A DNA stretch of 37,816 nucleotides from Actinomycetota bacterium (GTDB taxonomy: Bacteria; Actinomycetota; CADDZG01; WHSQ01): NCBI GenBank assembly GCA_016781115.1, contig JADDQX010000002.1, forward strand, positions 1 through 37,816, in the 5' to 3' direction. Made by a program: the position numbers and the translations under genes. Positions 5,869 through 29,640 of this stretch are shown here, piece by piece. The notes beneath the pieces are model-generated. The model had not been told where the DNA came from, did not search any database, and worked only from the letters and a program-made list of their open reading frames with translations. Within the stretch, counting starts at the first letter, position 1; every line of letters begins with the position of its first letter.

Positions 5869-6765
5869 CTAGGGACGCTGCGAGCGGCCGCGCGTGGGAT
5901 CGAAGTGGTAGATGACGCCGTTGGTGAAGCCGTTCGTCGGGGGGCCCTCTTCGTTGTAGGGCTGCACCATGTAGTGCAGTGATCCCGTCAAAGCGTCGGC
6001 CTTGTTCTTGAGGTCGAAGTCGTCGTCGAGCCCCTCGGACTCGCCCACGTACTCGATCCGAGTCTCTAGCTGCGACAGCCCCGTCGCCAAGTCGATCGAG
6101 TAGATCTCTCCGCCCGCGTCCGTCCCGCCCGCGACGAAGAGTTGATCACCGATGAAGGTAGCGCCGGTGATGCCGCTCGGAGGCACCGCGCCCGGCAAGC
6201 GGCGCACCGCCTTGATCGGAGTCGCTGCTGGAGCCGCATGCTCGGCCGTCAGGTCCGACATCGCGTAGGCGAGCAGGTCGTTGCCGGCTTGGGTCCACAG
6301 CAGCGTCCCATCGGGAGACACCTCGCACCACATCGCCTTCTCGATCTCGGCGGGGTCGAGCTTGACGTAGTAGTCCATCTTCAGCGTCTGCGGGTCGGCG
6401 ACACCGATCGCTCCGGTCTTGCAGGTGTTACCGGCGGGCGGGTAGTAGCACTCGAGCGGGAGGTACAAGCGGCCCCGGCTGTAGGACAGGTCACCGACGT
6501 GGTTGTAACCCTCGCGCGCGTGCACGTCGGGCGGGATCACGTCGTCGTTGCGGCCCGTCTCGTTCAGCTCGCCATCCGTGCGATAGAGGCCGAAGTAGAC
6601 ACCGGTGAAGTACCGGTTCCCGGCTTCGTCGTGCGTCATCCCCTGGTAGTAGTACAGAGGGATCGGCGTTCGACCCACCTCGGTCCACCCGCCAGAAGAT
6701 GCGGCGGCAGGAGTCACGAGAAGCGCGACCAGGCCGAGCCCGACCACCTTGTGAAGGATCTTCAT
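5869..6765 (-). CDS. Secreted protein, possible beta-propeller-like
   Basis: Signal peptide MKILHKVVGLGLVALLVTPAAAS; repeated strand-like segments; ATGA overlap with the upstream gene (6762-6765). Confidence 0.65.
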   Translation of the reverse strand: MKILHKVVGLGLVALLVTPAAASSGGWTEVGRTPIPLYYYQGMTHDEAGNRYFTGVYFGLYRTDGELNETGRNDDVIPPDVHAREGYNHVGDLSYSRGRLYLPLECYYPPAGNTCKTGAIGVADPQTLKMDYYVKLDPAEIEKAMWCEVSPDGTLLWTQAGNDLLAYAMSDLTAEHAAPAATPIKAVRRLPGAVPPSGITGATFIGDQLFVAGGTDAGGEIYSIDLATGLSQLETRIEYVGESEGLDDDFDLKNKADALTGSLHYMVQPYNEEGPPTNGFTNGVIYHFDPTRGRSQRP

Positions 6766-8318
6766 GCCTTCAAGGTTCGCCGGAGCGGCGCCAGGACCCT
6801 GCTCCGACGTTCTGAGGTCAAGAACCTACGCAGGGACGTAGTCCAGCTAGCAGAGAAGGCGTAGGAGGCGGCGGCTCCTGCTACGGCTACGTAAACGGCG
6901 AGGTTGATCCCGAAGTGCAGCAGAACGAGGTCCACGTGCGCTCCCGCGAGCCCGGGGTTAACCTTGGCGCCGCCCTGCAGGTGCTGGAGCAGCTTCACCG
7001 AGTGTTCGACCATGTGATAGCTCTGCAGGGCGACGGCGGCGCCCAGCAGAGCATCTCCGGCCCGGATCTCCCCTCGCGGCCGCCAGCCGCGGGCGCGACC
7101 CGCGGCCACCGCAGCGATCCCGACCAAGACGGCCGCGTTGTAGACGAAGTGGATCCATTCCGCCTCGACGGACGGTCCCACTATCCCGCCCTTGCTGGGG
7201 ACGCCGTCGATGTGCACCCGATACACCTGCAGAGCGTGCTCTACCAGGTGGAAGCTCTGCACGGCCAGCCCAACGACGAACAGCGGAACCACGTACCGAG
7301 CGGGATCCGACGGGTTCCGCCGAGCTCCGGCCGACAGGCGGTCGAGTGCCCAGCGCGATCCGCGCGTCACCAGGAACAACACGAGCAGCGCCAGCAAAGC
7401 CGTGGCGACGATGTTCGGAACCGCCCGCCATCCTCGCCCGAGCTCGAACGGAGACCGGTCCCGCACCAGAGAGTGCACGAATGTTCCGACCCCGCCCGCC
7501 TCACCCGCGAGCGAGTCGTTGTTCGTGGACGCGCGGGACCGGTAGTTCACCGCAAGTCCCCAACCAGCCTGCGATCCGACACCGGCCTCGGCCACCTGGT
7601 TCACCTCGTTGCCCGAGAACTCACACATCGACATGTCGCCGCAATAGAGCCCCGCCCCAGCAGCGTCTTCGACGAGGTTGCTCCTGGCGATGCCGTGGCT
7701 CATCTCGGTGATGGCGACCGCGCGCATCGTGGTCCCCCTGACGATGTTGCGGGAGAACTCGACCTCGGCGACGTGGGAGACGATGCCCTCCTGACCTCCC
7801 TCGACCAGCGAGTTCTCGACCACCGTCCGCGGATGGTTGTCGGCGTAGCGGACCTCGATGCCCTGCGCGTACTCGCTGATCATGTTGGTGATCCGGGCGC
7901 CGCTGATCCGCGCAGATGCATCCACGACCTCTATCCCGTGCAGCCGCGCCCCGGTGACCGTGACGTCTTCTAGGACCACGTCCTCGGCCTCGCGAACGGT
8001 GATCCCCTGGACCGCGCCTTCCACCACGAGCCCCTGAACGTGGACGTCGTCGGCGGTGATGGTCAACGCCGCTTCGACCGAGGGTCGAACCGCGAGCACG
8101 GCACCGGAGTCGGCCTCGAGCGTCAGCTTCTTGTCGATGACGATGGGGCCCGTGTGCACCCCGGGCTCTAATCGCACTACAGAACCAGCGCCGGCGTCTG
8201 CGACGGCGTCTTGCATGGCAGTGCCCGCCGGAACCCGAACGGTGGTGGGACGAGAAGCCACCGTCACACCGGCCGCGACCGCGGCGAGGACCGCCGCAGC
8301 CGCCACCGCTCGCTTCAT
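6762..8318 (-). CDS. Right-handed parallel beta-helix (NosD-like) protein fused to a C-terminal membrane domain
   Basis: MKRAVAAAAVLAAVAAGVTV signal/anchor; LVVEGAVQGITVREAEDVVLEDVTVTGARLHGIEVVDASARISG helix rungs; C-terminal TM segments with QSFHLVEH / QSYHMVEH; ATG overlaps the permease stop as ATGA. Confidence 0.85.
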   Translation of the reverse strand: MKRAVAAAAVLAAVAAGVTVASRPTTVRVPAGTAMQDAVADAGAGSVVRLEPGVHTGPIVIDKKLTLEADSGAVLAVRPSVEAALTITADDVHVQGLVVEGAVQGITVREAEDVVLEDVTVTGARLHGIEVVDASARISGARITNMISEYAQGIEVRYADNHPRTVVENSLVEGGQEGIVSHVAEVEFSRNIVRGTTMRAVAITEMSHGIARSNLVEDAAGAGLYCGDMSMCEFSGNEVNQVAEAGVGSQAGWGLAVNYRSRASTNNDSLAGEAGGVGTFVHSLVRDRSPFELGRGWRAVPNIVATALLALLVLFLVTRGSRWALDRLSAGARRNPSDPARYVVPLFVVGLAVQSFHLVEHALQVYRVHIDGVPSKGGIVGPSVEAEWIHFVYNAAVLVGIAAVAAGRARGWRPRGEIRAGDALLGAAVALQSYHMVEHSVKLLQHLQGGAKVNPGLAGAHVDLVLLHFGINLAVYVAVAGAAASYAFSASWTTSLRRFLTSERRSRVLAPLRRTLKA

Positions 8319-9202
8319 TTGACTGACCCGGCCAGCAATCCCTGAACGAAGTAGCGCTGGAAAGCGAAGAACACGATCAACGGGACGATCATCGACAGGA
8401 AGGCTGCGGGAGCGATGATGTCGAGGTTCGCGCCGAAGGTACGCAGCTCCTGCTGGATCGCAACGGTGATCGGGATCGCGTCGGACGCGGTGAAGGTCAG
8501 CGCCACCAGCAGGTCGTTCCAGGTCCAGAGGAACTGGAATATCAACAGCGAGGCGATCGCCGGCATCCCCAACGGCAAGACGATCCTTGTGAAGATCCCG
8601 AGCTCGGAGGCGCCATCGATTCGCGCCGCTTCCAACAGCTCGGTCGGGATCCCGATGAAGAAGTTCCGCAGCAGGAAGATCGCGAACGGCAACCCGAACG
8701 CGATGTGGAAGAAGACGGCGGCGGGAATGGTCCCGAAGATGCCGAGGTTGCCGAAGAGGCGCGACACCGGCAGCAGAGCCATCTGCAACGGGACGATCAA
8801 CAACGCCACGATCAGAAGGAACAACGGCTCGCGGCCTTTGAAGTCGATCCACGCGAACGCGTACGCCGCGAGAGCCGCTATGAGAACGACGAGCAGAGAC
8901 GCGGGCACCGTGATGTAGAGCGTGTTGAAGAGAGCCTGGACCAGAGATTCGTTCGCGAGCACCTCCTTGTACGGCTCCAGCGTGAGCTGGCGCGGCTCCG
9001 TAAACACCGTCCACCAGCCACTCTCGGCGCTCGCTGCAGAAGAACGGAAGCTGGTGATGAGAAGCCCGAAGGTCGGCGTCAACCAGAACAGCGCCATTAA
9101 GAGCAGGAAGAGGTGAAGCGGACCGCGTCCCAACGCGCGGCCGACGCGGCCGAGGCGCGAGCGCGAGCCTTCCCCCGGAAGCCTCTCCGCCGCCGCGGCC
9201 AT
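8315..9202 (-). CDS. Carbohydrate ABC transporter permease (MalG type)
   Basis: EAARIDGASELGIFTRIVLPLGMPAI EAA loop; TM segments; C-terminal VQGLLAGSVK. Confidence 0.93.
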   Translation of the reverse strand: MAAAAERLPGEGSRSRLGRVGRALGRGPLHLFLLLMALFWLTPTFGLLITSFRSSAASAESGWWTVFTEPRQLTLEPYKEVLANESLVQALFNTLYITVPASLLVVLIAALAAYAFAWIDFKGREPLFLLIVALLIVPLQMALLPVSRLFGNLGIFGTIPAAVFFHIAFGLPFAIFLLRNFFIGIPTELLEAARIDGASELGIFTRIVLPLGMPAIASLLIFQFLWTWNDLLVALTFTASDAIPITVAIQQELRTFGANLDIIAPAAFLSMIVPLIVFFAFQRYFVQGLLAGSVK

Positions 9203-10545
9203 CAGTTCTCTCTCCGGAAACGCCGGATGTTGATGAACATCACCGGGATCACGAGGATGAACAGCAACACCGCCACCGCGCTGCCGACGCCGTACTGACG
9301 GCTGCTGAACGTCGTCTTGAACATCTCGAGCGCGATCACGTTCGCCTCGTCTTGTGAGGCCCCCGGCGCCGTCACGAGAACGATGTCGAAGATCTTCAAA
9401 ACGTTGATGACCATGGTCACGAAGACGACACCGAGCACGGGGGCGAGCAAGGGCAAGGTCACGTGACGGAAGGTCTGCCACTCGTTGGCGCCGTCGACGC
9501 GCGCCGCCTCCAGCACGTCACGCGGGAGCGCCGCGAGGCCGGCCCCGATCACGACGACCGCGAAGCCCGCCCACATCCACGAGAACGCGCCGATGATCGC
9601 GGGGGTCACCAGGTTGGGACCGAGCCAGTCGACCCCGGCGAAACCCTGGGCGAACGTGGACTCCGCGACCTGCGCCTTGAATGGTCCTTCGCCGAGCCCC
9701 GAGAACGTGACGCTCCCGTCACTGCCGGTCGTTCCGCTGGCCACGACCTCACCGGTAGCCGACAGCACCTCGACGTCCGCCCCCGGGAGGCCGATCTCTC
9801 CTTGTTCCAGCTCGCCTGGGACGCCACCGCCGGGCTTGAAGTCTCGCCACACGACGACCCCCAGTCCGTCCGCCGGGGCTTGGGGCGCCGCCGCTTGTAC
9901 CGAGTCCGCGGGTACATCGTCCTCCGCCACCGCGGTGAGGCCGATCAAGGCACTTTCTCCCGCGGTGAACTCTTCGGTCGTCACGATGGGCGCCCCCGGC
10001 TTCGCCTGCTCGAGCGGCACGTCCGGCAGCACCTTCGCGTCGGGGTAGGCGCCGGGCCCGTTGAAGGTGTTGTAGACGAGACCGGTAGCGGCGTTGATGA
10101 AACCGAGCTCGGGCGAGGGCTCGTACATCACGCGCCAGATCACACCCGTGGCCAAGAACGAGATCGCCATAGGCATGAAGACGATGATCTTGATCGCGGT
10201 CGAGTACCTCACCCTCTCAGTGAGGATCGCGAACATCAGGCCGAGCGCCGTGATGATCGCTGGCGCCGTTGCCACCCAGATGAAGTTGTTCTTGATCGCG
10301 GTCTTGATGCGCTCGGTCTCTGCGACTGCCTTGTAGTTGTCGACGCCGACGAAAGCGCCCGCCTCGCTCCGGAAGCTCTGCCCGACGGTGTCGAGGGTCG
10401 GGTAGATGACGAGCGCTCCGACGAACAACAACGCAGGCCCGAGGAACAGGACGGCCATCCACCTCCTGGCCCCTCCAGGAGGTGGCTTTAGCTCCAGCCG
10501 GGTCCGGGATCTCGCGCCGGCGCCGGCCGCGGCAGTGCTAGCCAT
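9202..10545 (-). CDS. Carbohydrate ABC transporter permease (MalF type) with extracytoplasmic insertion
   Basis: EAARVDGANEWQTFRHVTLPLLAPV EAA loop; start at MASTAAAG; about 155-aa non-TM insertion after YEPSPELGFINA. Confidence 0.9.
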   Translation of the reverse strand: MASTAAAGAGARSRTRLELKPPPGGARRWMAVLFLGPALLFVGALVIYPTLDTVGQSFRSEAGAFVGVDNYKAVAETERIKTAIKNNFIWVATAPAIITALGLMFAILTERVRYSTAIKIIVFMPMAISFLATGVIWRVMYEPSPELGFINAATGLVYNTFNGPGAYPDAKVLPDVPLEQAKPGAPIVTTEEFTAGESALIGLTAVAEDDVPADSVQAAAPQAPADGLGVVVWRDFKPGGGVPGELEQGEIGLPGADVEVLSATGEVVASGTTGSDGSVTFSGLGEGPFKAQVAESTFAQGFAGVDWLGPNLVTPAIIGAFSWMWAGFAVVVIGAGLAALPRDVLEAARVDGANEWQTFRHVTLPLLAPVLGVVFVTMVINVLKIFDIVLVTAPGASQDEANVIALEMFKTTFSSRQYGVGSAVAVLLFILVIPVMFINIRRFRREN

Positions 10546-10562: not shown

Positions 10563-11900
10563 CTAGGACTGCTTCTTGAAGGCCTTCGCCGCGTCTTTCT
10601 CGAGCGCGGCCGCTATGCCCTCGGCGTCGTCGGGGTTCTTCAAGAAATCCTGGAAGCGCAACCACAACCCGCGTCCCGTCGTGCCGCCGAACTCGGGCGG
10701 TTGCAGGTCGGACAGGTCGAACCTGATCGCCTCCGCCGTCGCGATCGCCTCGCCCGAACGCTGCGTGATCTCGTCCGGGTAGACGCCGGTGTCGAGGTTC
10801 TGGTTCGCCGAGGTGAAGCCGCCACGCTCCGCCCATACTTGCGCCGCCTCGGGCGTGGCGAGATACGCGAGGAAATCCTGCGCCGCCTCGTTGTCCGTCA
10901 GCGCGACCGCGGCGTCACCACCACCTACCACCGCGGGCTCCGAGCCATCGATCGCTGGGAAATCGAAAAAGTCGAAGTCGGTGCCGGCCTTCGCACCGGC
11001 CTCCTCAGTGATCACGCCCGGAACGAAGTCACCCTCGTACACGGTCGCCGCGGCCGGATCCTTCGTGAAAACCTGGTTGACCGACGTCGTGAAGTCCGTC
11101 TGCAGCGCGCCCTCTCTGCCACCCGCGAGGTTTGCCTCGTCGCCGACGAGCTCCGCGAACGTCTCCAGCGCCTCGATCACGCTGTCGTCGGTCCACGGGA
11201 TCTCGTGGTTTGCCAGCTGGTCGTACATCTCTGGGCCGGCCGTGCGGATGTAGATGTTCTCGAACCAGTCGGTGAGGGTCCAGCCATCGGCGCCGCCCAT
11301 CGACACCCAGGGAACACCGGATGCGTTCACCGTCTTAGCGGTTTGCAGCATCTCGTCCCAGTCCGCAGGAGGCTCCACGCCCGCCTGCTCGAAAACCTCG
11401 ATGTTGTACCACCAGGTCGACTTGTTCGACACCTTGAAGTAGACGCCGTAGAGGGTTCCGTCGACAGAGCCCAGCTCCGCCCACACCGGAGCGAAGTTCT
11501 CCGCCAGCGCGGCCGAGACCTCTTCGTTGGCCTCGATCACGGAACCGTCGTCCGCGAGGCTACGAACCAGGCCCGGCTGCGCGATCAGCGCCACGTCCGG
11601 CGGACTTCCGCCCTCGATCTTGTTGCCGAGGAACGCGGCCATGTCGTCGCCCGCGGAGGTGAACGAAGCCTCGTGCCCGCTTGCCTCCGAGAATGCATCC
11701 AGCACGGCCTGGAAGCTCTTCTTCTCCTCGCCCGTGAAGACCGCGGCAACCTCGATCGAACCTCCGCCTTCGGCTTCGGCCTCGTCCGCCTCTTGTTGCG
11801 GCGCCGGGACCTCCCCGGTGGAGCACGCGACTGCAAGCATCATCAGCACAACCAACATCACCAGGTAACGACGCAACTGTGTCCCCCTTCGCTCGTCCAC
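10563..11900 (-). CDS. Extracellular sugar-binding lipoprotein (ABC solute-binding protein family 1)
   Basis: Lipobox MMLAVACSTG; typical SBP pattern GSPPDVALIAQPGLVRSLADDGSV, YGVYFKVSNKSTWWYN, WDEMLQTAKTV. Confidence 0.92.
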   Translation of the reverse strand: MDERRGTQLRRYLVMLVVLMMLAVACSTGEVPAPQQEADEAEAEGGGSIEVAAVFTGEEKKSFQAVLDAFSEASGHEASFTSAGDDMAAFLGNKIEGGSPPDVALIAQPGLVRSLADDGSVIEANEEVSAALAENFAPVWAELGSVDGTLYGVYFKVSNKSTWWYNIEVFEQAGVEPPADWDEMLQTAKTVNASGVPWVSMGGADGWTLTDWFENIYIRTAGPEMYDQLANHEIPWTDDSVIEALETFAELVGDEANLAGGREGALQTDFTTSVNQVFTKDPAAATVYEGDFVPGVITEEAGAKAGTDFDFFDFPAIDGSEPAVVGGGDAAVALTDNEAAQDFLAYLATPEAAQVWAERGGFTSANQNLDTGVYPDEITQRSGEAIATAEAIRFDLSDLQPPEFGGTTGRGLWLRFQDFLKNPDDAEGIAAALEKDAAKAFKKQS

Positions 11901-11912
11901 GTGCTGACCTTC

Positions 11913-13121
11913 CTAACCTCCGTAGATCCCAGATCCGGTTGCAGGATCGAAGAAGTGCAACTGCGCGGTGTCCACCGCAAGCTCGACCTCCTTACCGCGA
12001 GCAACGTCCGCCTTTGGGTCGACCTCGGCGACGAACTCCGAGCGTCCCGCGTCGCCGTTCTCCTCGAATCGACCCACCTCGACGGCGCCGGTGTCGACCG
12101 CGAGCTCTTTGATCTCCTCCGTCTGGACGCGCGGAGCATCGACCGTGAAGTGGACGAGCGTTTGGGTTCCAAGGGCTTCCACGAGGTCGACCGAGGCGCG
12201 CAGACGGCTCTGGCTGCCGGCAGGAGCGAATCCGGCTTCTTCGAAGTCCTGTGGGCGAAGCCCGACGATGACCTCTTGGTCGAAGAACCTCTGTAGCTCC
12301 GAGCGGGTGGCCAACGCTTCCTTGGAGATATCGAGCTGCTGACTGCCGATCGAGACGGACGCTCCTCCATCTCGTCGCTCGAGCTTGCTCGCGACGAAGT
12401 TCATGGCCGGGCTCCCGATGAACCCCGCGACGAACAGGTTCACGGGCCGGCCGAACAGCTCCTGTGGCGATCCGACCTGCTGTAGCTGACCCTTGCGAAG
12501 GACCGCAACGCGGTCGCCCATCGTCATCGCCTCGACCTGGTCGTGCGTTACGTAGATCGTGGTGACGTCTAGGTCCGCCTGGATGCGAGCGATCTCCGCC
12601 CTCATCTGAACGCGAAGCTTCGCGTCGAGATTGGACAGAGGTTCGTCCATCAAGAAGGCTTGAGGCTCGCGCACGATCGCGCGGCCCATCGCGACGCGCT
12701 GCCGTTGTCCCCCCGACAGCGCCTTCGGCTTGCGGTCGAGGAACTCCTCGAGCCCCAGTATGCGCGCCGCGTGCTGGACGCGCCTGTCCATCTCGGCGCG
12801 TTCCACCTTCGCGAGCTTCAAACCGAACGCCATGTTGTCGCGCACCGTCATGTGTGGGTAGAGCGCGTAGTTCTGGAACACCATGGCGATGTCGCGGTCC
12901 TTGGGCGGCATGTCGTTGACGACGCGGTCGCCGATCTTGATCTCGCCGTCGGTGATGGCCTCGAGCCCGGCGATCATCCGCAGCGCCGTGGACTTCCCAC
13001 AACCCGAAGGACCGACGAACACCATGAACTCGCCGTCTTTGATGTTCAGATCCAGTGCGTCCACCGCTGGTGGTCCCGACGCGTAGCGCTTGGTTACTTC
13101 GTGAAGCACGATCTGAGCCAC
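11913..13121 (-). CDS. ABC transporter ATP-binding protein (UgpC/MsmK/MalK type)
   Basis: GPSGCGKST Walker [16 protein letters not shown] signature, [16 protein letters not shown] Walker B, C-terminal TOBE-type region. Confidence 0.95.
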
Positions 13122-18125: not shown

Positions 18126-19976
18126 GTGGATGCAGGCGAACTCGCGCGTCGCTGGGGGATCCAAACGCGCTACGAGAACTTCAACAAGGAAGTGCAGGTC
18201 GTTCCCGCCGAGACGGTAGACCTCCTCTTGGAGGTGATGGACGCCCGCGAGCAGGGCCCTCCCCCGGCTGGAGCGCAGGTGACCACGCCGGGCGCCGGCG
18301 TCGATCTGACGAACGTCGTGGAGCTGCGGACGGAAGACGGCGGCAGCGAGGTCGTGGTGGACGCGCTGCCCGACGACCTTCCGCTCGGCTATCACCGGCT
18401 CGTCCGCAACGACGGCAGCGAGCAAACCTTGATCGTCAGCCCCGGCGCGTGCCACTTCCCCGAAAGCTTGCGCATCTGGGGCTGGGCGCTGCAGCTCTAC
18501 TCACTGCTATCGAAGACGAGCTGGGGGATCGGCGACCTGGGCGACCTGCGCCGGTTCGCGCGTTGGGCGCAGCAGAGCGGCGCGGGAGCGATCATGTTGA
18601 ACCCTCTGCATGCTGCGCTTCCGTTAGAGAGCCAGCAACCGAGCCCCTACTTCCCGAGCAGTCGCTGCTTCCGCAACCCGCTGTACCTGCGCATCGAAGA
18701 CGTGCCGGGGGCAGATGACGTTGCGGGGATCAGCGACCTCGCTACCGAGGGCCGCGCCCTGAACGAGGCAGCCACGATCGATCGCGACCGCGTCTACGAC
18801 CTCAAGATGCAGGCGCTGGAGAAGCTGTGGGCGGAGGCGCCGAAGACCGAGTTCGAGACGTGGGCGGAGGACCAGGGGGAGGTGTTGCGCAGTTACGCGA
18901 CCTACGCGTCTATCGCGGAGGCGCACGGCGGTGGCCCCGGAAGCGGGTGGCCGGCGGATCTGGCGCGCGGGGAACCGAACGCGCTGAGGGTATGGCAGGA
19001 GGAGCACTCGGACCGCATCACCTTCCACGGCTGGATCCAGTGGCTGTTGGAGCGGCAACTGGCCGACGCCTCGCGCGAGGTGGGACTGGTCAACGACCTC
19101 GCGATCGGGGTGGATCCCGACGGGGCGGACGCGTGGTTGTGGCAAGACGCCTTCGTCCGGGGTGTGACGGTGGGGGCTCCTCCCGACGAGTTCAACCTCG
19201 CGGGTCAGAACTGGGGGCTTCCTCCGATGGACCCGTGGAAGCTGCGGGCCGGCGGATACGAGCCGTTCATCCGAACGATCCGCTCCGCGATGCGGCACAG
19301 CTCCGGCATCCGCATAGATCACGTGATGGGGCTCTTCCGACTCTTCTGGATCCCTGACGGCGCGGAGGCCGCGGCAGGCGCCTACGTGCGCTACCCGCAC
19401 GACGATCTGCTCAACATCGTCGCGCTCGAGAGCCACCGGGCGCAGGCGTACGTCGTCGGCGAAGACCTCGGAACCGTCGAGGACGTGGTGCGGGACGAGA
19501 TGGAGCGCCGAAAGATGCTGTCGTACAGGTTGTTGTGGTTCGAAGAGGACCTGCCCGACAGCTATCCCGAGCTGGCGCTCGCGGCGGTGACGAACCACGA
19601 CCTCCAAACGGTGGCGGGCTTGTGGTCGCGAAGCGACATCGAGAGCCAGCAGGAGGTCGGGCTGGAGGTGAACGTCGAGGGGACAGAGGCTCAGCGGGAG
19701 CAGCTGCGTCGGTGGCTGGAGCTAGACGACGACGCCCCCATCGAGGAGGTCATCCTTGGCACCTACCGTTTGCTCGGCCGCGCCTCCTGCGCGGTCGTGA
19801 TGGCGACGCTCGAAGACGTGCTCGGGGTCACCGAAAGACCGAACGTGCCCGGAACGAGCGACGAACGACCGAACTGGTCGCTGCCGCTTCCGCTTCCGCT
19901 GGAGGAGATCGAGCGACACGAGCGGGTGAACCGGGTTATGGAGCTCCTAGCGCGAGAACGAGAGCGAGTGCTGTGA
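18126..19976 (+). CDS. malQ: 4-alpha-glucanotransferase
   Basis: RIWGWALQLYSLLSKTSWGIGDLGDLRRFARWA, GIRIDHVMGLFRLFWIPDGA, VVGEDLGTVEDVVRDEM, LAAVTNHDLQTVAG. Confidence 0.95.
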   Translation: MDAGELARRWGIQTRYENFNKEVQVVPAETVDLLLEVMDAREQGPPPAGAQVTTPGAGVDLTNVVELRTEDGGSEVVVDALPDDLPLGYHRLVRNDGSEQTLIVSPGACHFPESLRIWGWALQLYSLLSKTSWGIGDLGDLRRFARWAQQSGAGAIMLNPLHAALPLESQQPSPYFPSSRCFRNPLYLRIEDVPGADDVAGISDLATEGRALNEAATIDRDRVYDLKMQALEKLWAEAPKTEFETWAEDQGEVLRSYATYASIAEAHGGGPGSGWPADLARGEPNALRVWQEEHSDRITFHGWIQWLLERQLADASREVGLVNDLAIGVDPDGADAWLWQDAFVRGVTVGAPPDEFNLAGQNWGLPPMDPWKLRAGGYEPFIRTIRSAMRHSSGIRIDHVMGLFRLFWIPDGAEAAAGAYVRYPHDDLLNIVALESHRAQAYVVGEDLGTVEDVVRDEMERRKMLSYRLLWFEEDLPDSYPELALAAVTNHDLQTVAGLWSRSDIESQQEVGLEVNVEGTEAQREQLRRWLELDDDAPIEEVILGTYRLLGRASCAVVMATLEDVLGVTERPNVPGTSDERPNWSLPLPLPLEEIERHERVNRVMELLARERERVL

Positions 19977-28440: not shown

Positions 28441-29640
28441 CTACTTCACGACCACCCGTCCCGACATGAACCCGCCATGCACCAAGCAGATGTACTTGAA
28501 GCCCTTGTCGCTCGATCTATCTGCCATCTTCACGGTCCAAGGCTGAGCGTCGTACGACGTCTCCTCCGGGAAGATCGGAGTCTTCACTCCGGAGTTCTCG
28601 AGATCCGAGTTGCCGGTGACTCTCCCGTTGCCGGTCTCGTCGACGATCCGCTGGTCGACGTCGAGTTCGAACTGGCTCATGTCCGCACAAGGAGGTTCGG
28701 TCTCGGAGAACGTCGCGGGAAGGTCCGGGGAGGTCCCCTCGTCACCGTCGGGGTCACAGACCGGCATGAACCCGTTCTGCCCCAGCTCCCGAGCCTTGCG
28801 GCCCCCGAACGTAGCGGTGTGCGGCTCGACCTCGTCTTGGAAGTGGTACATGACCCGGGCACCCTTCGGGACCGAGATCTTCTTCGGGTAGAACGCGATC
28901 AGCTCGATCGGGCCGCCGGTCGAACCCGCCCAGATGTCGTAGACCCTCTGGCCAGCCGCGTTGCGGTGGAAGGTGCGCTTCGCGTTCATCTTGCTGTGCA
29001 GAGCCAGCGCGTCCTCGTAGTCCTTCGCCTTCAGAGCAGCGGCGCGTGCATCCAGCTCTTCTTGCGTGGAAGCCGCTTCCTGCGGGCCGACGACCTCAAC
29101 CTTGATGTTCGTGTTGATGTCCGCCGCCGCGACAGAGCTGCCCCACAGCGTCGTCCCGGGCTCGGCCTCGATCGTCACCCACACGCTGAAGTCCGGCTCC
29201 ACGCCCTCCTGCTCCTCGGGGAAAGCGGGCAGGATGGGATCGTTGTTGCGTCCCCACACGCATGGGTTGTCCTTCGTCCCGCACTGCGTCTCCAGGTCCT
29301 CTGCGAGGTTGATCTTCACCGCGTCGGGACCCTCATCGGGATCGTTCTGCAGGAACGAGTAACGCGCCCCGTTCGTCCATACGTTCTCTGCGAAGTAGTC
29401 CTGCGGGTAAACACCCTCTGGAAGCATCGCGAGGTGGTCGCTGAAGTGGATCGTGTCGCCAGAATGCACCTTGATCGATCCGGGATAGATCCGCGCCGAG
29501 AAGCCGGGCACGCCGACCTCGAAGAAGCTCTGCCCGACCTCGATCTCGTAGGTCGTGGCGGCCTTTGCCGAACTCGGTACGAACAAACTGCCTAGCACTG
29601 CCAGCGCGACGAGCGCGCCTGCCCGCTTCCTTCTTTTCAC
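28441..29640 (-). CDS. Secreted two-domain cupredoxin-like copper protein
   Basis: Signal peptide; C-terminal EPHTATF ... YICLVHGGFMSGRVVV type-1 Cu ligand pattern (H, C, H, M); N-terminal related domain with GDTIHFSDHLAML. Confidence 0.8.
   Translation of the reverse strand: MKRRKRAGALVALAVLGSLFVPSSAKAATTYEIEVGQSFFEVGVPGFSARIYPGSIKVHSGDTIHFSDHLAMLPEGVYPQDYFAENVWTNGARYSFLQNDPDEGPDAVKINLAEDLETQCGTKDNPCVWGRNNDPILPAFPEEQEGVEPDFSVWVTIEAEPGTTLWGSSVAAADINTNIKVEVVGPQEAASTQEELDARAAALKAKDYEDALALHSKMNAKRTFHRNAAGQRVYDIWAGSTGGPIELIAFYPKKISVPKGARVMYHFQDEVEPHTATFGGRKARELGQNGFMPVCDPDGDEGTSPDLPATFSETEPPCADMSQFELDVDQRIVDETGNGRVTGNSDLENSGVKTPIFPEETSYDAQPWTVKMADRSSDKGFKYICLVHGGFMSGRVVVK

Follow-up and report, generated by a model that had tools for sequence, protein, structure and literature searches.

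The stretch of DNA analysed here (the window; 37,816 nucleotides of contig JADDQX010000002.1 from an Actinomycetota bacterium) carries on its reverse strand a gene whose 518-amino-acid product joins an N-terminal signal or anchor helix and a right-handed beta-helix, predicted to be extracytoplasmic, to a membrane domain made of two tandem repeats (Table 1). This fusion gene is single-copy in its own assembly (2.24 Mb, 84% complete) and is preceded, in order, by genes for a UgpC/MalK-type ATPase, a solute-binding protein (SBP), a MalF-like permease and a MalG-like permease. It is followed by a gene for a secreted, repeat-like protein, which matched no Pfam family and is perhaps a beta-propeller. 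The gene set is that of the AglEFGK/MalEFGK2 alpha-glucoside and maltose importers, from which the window operon differs by the added start/stop-coupled beta-helix membrane gene and by an SdrD-like insert in the MalF-like permease. This SdrD_B/CarboxypepD_reg-like insert is Ig-type and sits between membrane helices. Elsewhere in the window, positions 18126-19976 encode a 4-alpha-glucanotransferase (GH77, MalQ type), which would fit glucan metabolism in the vicinity of the importer.

Table 1 Window coordinates of the fusion gene, its parts and the neighbouring operon genes
Feature	Position	Strand	Basis
UgpC/MalK-type ATPase	11913..13121	-	NF008653 480.7 bits, cut-off 432
Carbohydrate-type solute-binding lipoprotein	10563..11900	-	SBP_bac_1 8.4e-20; NCBIfam carbohydrate SBPs below cut-off
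MalF-like ABC permease with SdrD_B/CarboxypepD_reg-like insert	9202..10545	-	Pfam; junctions read
MalG-like ABC permease, stop overlaps fusion start (ATGA)	8315..9202	-	BPD_transp_1 5.8e-16; junction read
Beta-helix/duplicated membrane-domain protein gene, 518 aa	6762..8318	-	Translation, Pfam, AlphaFold2
N-terminal signal or anchor helix, residues 1-25	8244..8318	-	AlphaFold2 helix 2-20; two positive residues at start
Right-handed beta-helix, extracytoplasmic, residues 26-299	7422..8243	-	Pfam Beta_helix 5.8e-12; AlphaFold2; Foldseek 6kfn
Invariant beta-helix patch: H182, T204-E205-M206-S207, C226-G-D228-M229-S-x-C232	7623..7775	-	Alignment of six fusion proteins
TM1 linker helix, residues 300-331	7326..7421	-	AlphaFold2; positive charges after TM1
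Repeat 1, VQSFHLVEH...EAEWIHFVYN	7128..7262	-	Self-alignment
Repeat 1 HxxEH, H357 E360 H361	7236..7250	-	Invariant in every family row
Repeat 1 ExxHxxxN, E387 H390 N394	7137..7160	-	E, H invariant in 19 rows; N in 17/19
Repeat 2, LQSYHMVEH...LLHFGIN	6894..7028	-	Self-alignment
Repeat 2 HxxEH, H435 E438 H439	7002..7016	-	Invariant
Repeat 2 HxxxN, H468 N472	6903..6917	-	Invariant
Downstream gene, ATGA overlap with fusion gene; secreted, repeat-like, 298 aa	5869..6765	-	ORF, Pfam, junction

Fusions of the same layout occur in other Actinomycetota MAGs (G001, L033, L034, L035, L036 (Acidimicrobiales) and L037 (Egibacteraceae)); all fusion homologues found here are MAG-derived, and the counts of homologues and carriers are lower bounds. 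The fusion gene belongs to a conserved, coupled operon of the MalEFGK type: the order ATPase, SBP, MalF-like permease, MalG-like permease and fusion is kept in the window, G001 (locus L011), L033, L036 and L037, and is followed in L034 up to the contig end, with the SBP and UgpC genes beyond it. In the window, L033, L034 and L037, the start codon of the fusion gene and the stop codon of the MalG-like gene share bases (ATGA or GTGA), and in L036 the closest GTG codons in frame lie 2 and 11 bases past that stop; overlap or close succession was thus found at all five readable loci. In G001 the fusion gene is split, which we attribute to an assembly fault because its whole operon is likewise broken by frameshifts; a reading as two separate genes was rejected, the ABC genes of that locus being frameshifted too.

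Orthologous SBPs were also found in six genomes from the same draw of relatives (G011, G012, G015, G028, G044 and G096), none of which gave a beta-helix match, and in G012 the orthologous ABC cassette adjoins GH13, GH1 and GH38 genes. Since close relatives carry the same cassette without the fusion, the fusion is not essential to transport. The fusion-free orthologous cassettes, together with the genes beside that of G012, point to an importer probably specific for glucosides or related oligosaccharides, to which the fusion protein is probably an optional accessory.

The beta-helix domain

AlphaFold2, run on window and locus sequences with models built on six to seven sequences, places a beta-helix at about residues 26-286 with core pLDDT values mostly of 88-97. 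The Pfam models Beta_helix (5.8e-12) and NosD (7.9e-8) match only the N-terminal part of the protein (residues 87-252), in agreement with the beta-helix fold proposed in the initial annotation, and the C-terminal half has no Pfam match reaching the cut-off. In a Foldseek comparison the beta-helix most closely resembles the PL31 alginate lyase 6kfn (E 1.6e-5, TMt 0.72). Nearly all of the top matches are beta-helices that act on polysaccharides, the others being mostly pectate lyases, polygalacturonases, epimerases and phage depolymerases.

Residues invariant in the six aligned fusion proteins include E130, Q152, E155, R157, H182, E205, M206, C226, D228, M229 and C232. H182, E205 and D228 are spaced by 23 residues, aligned with an Asn ladder (N191/N214/N237), and for this reason are probably stacked on successive coils, where they could plausibly form a ligand-binding or catalytic patch. 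The beta-helix showed no recognisable set of catalytic residues that would define an enzyme. Identity with a PL31 lyase was considered and rejected: the fold agrees, but the catalytic Tyr184 and Lys221 of the alginate lyase PsAly (PDB 6kfn; PMC6796002), together with its conserved lysines, are without an invariant counterpart in the six-fusion alignment, in which no beta-helix column holds an invariant Tyr or Lys.

The initial annotation had further likened the protein to NosD, which acts with NosFYL in the maturation of nitrous oxide reductase and is likewise an extracytoplasmic beta-helix encoded beside an ABC system. This analogy was not supported. The Pfam NosD model, itself a beta-helix model, scores 32.4 bits, above its gathering score of 23.6, but the NCBIfam NosD model (TIGR04247), whose cut-off is 300 bits, matches residues 35-197 with only 55.2, and NosD is absent from the top 50 Foldseek matches of the beta-helix. 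NosL was found in none of eight carrier genomes (the window's own being 84% complete), with two control genomes giving a match; the NosZ model PF18764 matched none of the eight, nor any control genome. A NosF/NosY-type ABC partner was not found at the locus, where an SBP_bac_1 protein, two BPD_transp_1 permeases and the UgpC-type ATPase make up a carbohydrate-type, binding-protein-dependent importer; the window protein also differs from NosD by its duplicated membrane domain. We therefore reject identity with NosD on the model score, the missing NosL and the wrong type of ABC system, and the NosD label should be avoided.

Duplication and invariant residues of the membrane domain

The pairing of repeat 1 with repeat 2 is the top self-match within the membrane domain, with 15 of 45 positions identical, 26 of 45 positive and a BLOSUM62 score of 73, a value reached by none of 1,000 class-preserving shuffles (mean 15.7, sd 6.3, maximum 43; z = 9.1). 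Comparison of the first and second halves of the 19-member family alignment with hhalign gave a probability of 98% (E = 3.3e-14). The 45-residue tandem duplication described in the initial annotation is thus real, with exactly the coordinates it had been given. Because corresponding repeats are 39-43% identical across proteins, compared with 30% for the two repeats within one protein, the duplication predates the family. That homologues always carry two repeats, a point the initial annotation had raised for checking, is true of all 19 aligned proteins and of the DUF6008 proteins described below; a homologue at L063:3362-4021 and archaeal fragments at L039 are incomplete. The former has both HxxEH motifs and has lost the final HxxxN segment through a short deletion, and the latter (L039:3919-4187, from a Nitrosopumilales MAG) are frame-broken membrane-domain fragments with intact HxxEH motifs that represent either a decayed copy or assembly errors.

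Conservation, read first in ten diverse proteins and then in 19, leaves 12 invariant columns: H, E, H, G, G, E and H in repeat 1 and H, E, H, H and N in repeat 2, following the motif order HxxEH and ExxHxxxN, then HxxEH and HxxxN. Six His, three Glu, two Gly and one Asn are therefore the only invariant residues in this set, whose most distant members share about 24% identity with the window protein. Overall, His accounts for only about 5% of residues, Glu for 3% and Asn for 2%. Membrane helices with such an invariant His/Glu/Asn pattern typically house cofactor sites, and with His and Glu conservation this strict, a metal or heme site would be the natural reading. The conservation of these residues among homologues, on which the proposal of such a site had hinged, is complete for the six His and three Glu.

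AlphaFold2 predicts five helices in the membrane region, namely the linker helix (300-331) and helices A to D (340-370, 386-409, 419-449 and 464-517); modelled alone, the membrane domain has a pLDDT of 77.7. Lys and Arg together number 4, 5 and 7 in the inner segments and 2 and 1 in the outer A-B and C-D loops, the positive segments being placed before helix A, after helix B and after helix D. With the beta-helix outside, the positive-inside rule would put the outer ends of helices A and C, which carry HxxEH, and the starts of helices B and D, which carry HxxxN, on the outer face, so that both His/Glu clusters are predicted to lie on the outer side of the membrane. The initial annotation had placed these residues in transmembrane segments; judged by helix boundaries and charge distribution, the motifs would lie beside the outer loops, near the outer termini of four helices, and not deep in the membrane.

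Relatives of the membrane domain

Outside the beta-helix fusions, the domain recurs with other partners or alone. In a Chloroflexi MAG (L038:7899-10139) the two-repeat membrane domain is fused to FG-GAP repeats and UnbV_ASPIC instead of a beta-helix, with a divergently oriented gene for a fused MalF-MalG permease some 200 bases away, and 12 of the 200 other genomes drawn around this one match the membrane domain. Stand-alone two-repeat proteins of 160-220 amino acids occur in these genomes and in G080, G297 and G179, with no shared metal or heme genes among their neighbours. The contig scan used four fusion rows, the alignment that includes stand-alone members being too degenerate, and the viral contigs yielded no relatives. 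Co-occurrence with the same ABC genes applies to the fusion form but not to other forms of the domain.

No significant match to members of the membrane-domain family was obtained from Pfam or NCBIfam, where weak hits included DUF6358, Turandot, terpene synthase and HXXEE (E 0.3, a tentative lead), and PDB sequences gave no match to the family profile. The window protein itself does not reach the gathering threshold of DUF6008 (PF19471), and the best score of that model among the 19 relatives is a weak one for a single member (E 0.013). Profile-profile comparison of the family with DUF6008 gave a probability of 96% (E 3.9e-9) over 144 columns spanning the whole domain, compared with 0.2-0.3% for an unrelated ABC permease family used as a control, and we therefore read the membrane domain and DUF6008 as one superfamily. 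The C-terminal domain is thus linked to no characterised family, only distantly to one that is itself without an assigned function.

The DUF6008 proteins, from Streptomyces-type genomes, share the two repeats (HxxEH ... ExxHxxxN and HxxEH ... HxxxN) in the form GHxQEH ... GMEILHLxGN and HGLEH ... WWHFxAN, but differ in their longer A-B and C-D loops, in an extra Met/His-rich N-terminus, and in having neither a beta-helix nor an ABC operon. Their gene neighbourhoods were uninformative. In the DUF6008 proteins L084-L087 (genomes G703, G699 and G675), Met/His-rich N-termini of the type MPxMPGMxMGHH, which resemble copper-binding segments, precede both HxxEH/HxxxN repeats; MPTMPEMPGMQMGHH is one example, and such a terminus is a hint that may point to metal.

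Candidate roles of the fusion protein

Our results suggest that the fusion protein is likely to be a membrane-tethered accessory of a MalEFGK/Agl-type carbohydrate ABC importer. Its beta-helix would lie outside the membrane beside the permeases, with which the protein is presumed to be in contact, and would bind or process a glycan or oligosaccharide ahead of import; we consider it about as likely as not that the beta-helix binds or acts on a glycan. The duplicated helical domain of the DUF6008-containing superfamily would be more than a plain anchor, in that HxxEH and (E)xxHxxxN from each half could form a pseudo-symmetric cluster of six His, three Glu and two Asn at the outer membrane face. 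This cluster would most probably carry one or two transition-metal ions, rather than heme, that serve a catalytic or redox step or stabilise the complex. Metal binding by the cluster is slightly favoured on the basis of its conserved residues, and heme binding is unlikely. Taken as a whole, this combination of importer accessory, glycan-acting beta-helix and outer-face metal or heme cluster is our best explanation, offered tentatively as falling a little short of an even case.

Several other roles can be envisioned for the membrane domain. The His/Glu cluster might be structural or serve as a proton or ion relay, the protein acting simply as an adhesin or scaffold anchored in the membrane next to the importer. 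Fusion of the domain to unrelated outer modules, and its stand-alone occurrence without a common neighbourhood, would suit such a role. A scaffold, though, would need nothing like so strict a pattern, in which only His, Glu, Asn and Gly stay invariant between phyla even at about 24% identity, and we judge this role rather unlikely.

A heme b bundle resembling cytochrome b561 or the NOX four-helix bundle could carry electrons through the membrane to a glycan-directed step, possibly an oxidation, outside the cytoplasm. The top Foldseek matches of the membrane domain include Dcytb (E 0.61), NOX5, NarI, cytochrome b561 and CcmC, a heme on the pseudo-axis could take its ligands from His residues related by the two-fold, and a ferric-reductase/NADPH-oxidase-like FAD/NAD oxidoreductase (Ferric_reduct, FAD_binding_8 and NAD_binding_1) is encoded within the window at 1584-2972. 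None of the Foldseek matches to the PDB is significant, however (0 with E<=0.001, metal and heme proteins included); cytochrome b561/Dcytb (PDB 5zle), also a small helical membrane bundle with conserved His, has a different His/Glu/Asn pattern; and because the cluster is predicted to lie only near the outer face, a two-heme path would be missing. The invariant Glu and Asn next to each His fit a metal better, and heme-based electron transfer is, in our judgement, improbable.

The domain could also be an intramembrane metal-dependent hydrolase for which the fused outer domains (beta-helix, FG-GAP/UnbV) recruit substrates. We take HxxEH to be an inverted zincin motif and HxxxN to resemble that of the Rce1/CPBP proteases; HxxEH with a third His per repeat is compatible with a Zn site, and the site stays constant as the partner domain changes. 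Yet both halves retain the full set, unlike typical enzymes with one active site, and a Pfam or NCBIfam peptidase match is absent. CPBP/Rce1 proteases are marked by the motifs EExxxR, FxxxH and HxxxN, of which only HxxxN is present by inspection of the 19-row family alignment; EExxxR and a conserved Arg are missing. We regard a hydrolase as very unlikely.

Equally doubtful is a NosD-like maturation role in which the beta-helix would deliver copper to a copper enzyme by way of the His/Glu site in the membrane, supported by the ABC system: the Pfam NosD score, the invariant Met, Cys and His of the beta-helix, a NosD chain as a weak profile match (E 0.0088), the Met/His-rich N-termini of DUF6008 proteins and a cupredoxin-like protein in the window speak for it, but the NCBIfam score, the missing NosL, the carbohydrate type of the ABC genes and the structural ranking speak against it. 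The cupredoxin-like protein (28441-29640) is secreted, without a Pfam match at E<=0.001, and its cupredoxin-like C-terminus carries YICLVHGGFM, with the pattern C-x2-H-x3-M.

Returning to the importer accessory with an outer-face metal site, a broader reading can be put forward, which we consider possible though doubtful: the duplicated membrane domain, DUF6008 included, may define an overlooked superfamily with a six-His/three-Glu/Asn metal (or heme) centre at the outer face, recruited as a module through fusion to a beta-helix in glucoside-type importers of Actinomycetota and to an FG-GAP/UnbV propeller in a Chloroflexi bacterium, and standing alone elsewhere. With its motif, duplication, topology, relatives and modular fusions now defined, direct tests become possible. 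That twelve residues, nine of them His or Glu, stay invariant across phyla in small membrane proteins to which no function has been assigned points to a cofactor site not studied before. In a sugar importer this His/Glu site is borne by a coupled fifth gene, a link that would not be expected from the NosD label which automatic annotation could assign, and if the module reading is true, the importer would gain a metal-dependent step, embedded in the membrane, that acts on its glycan substrate.
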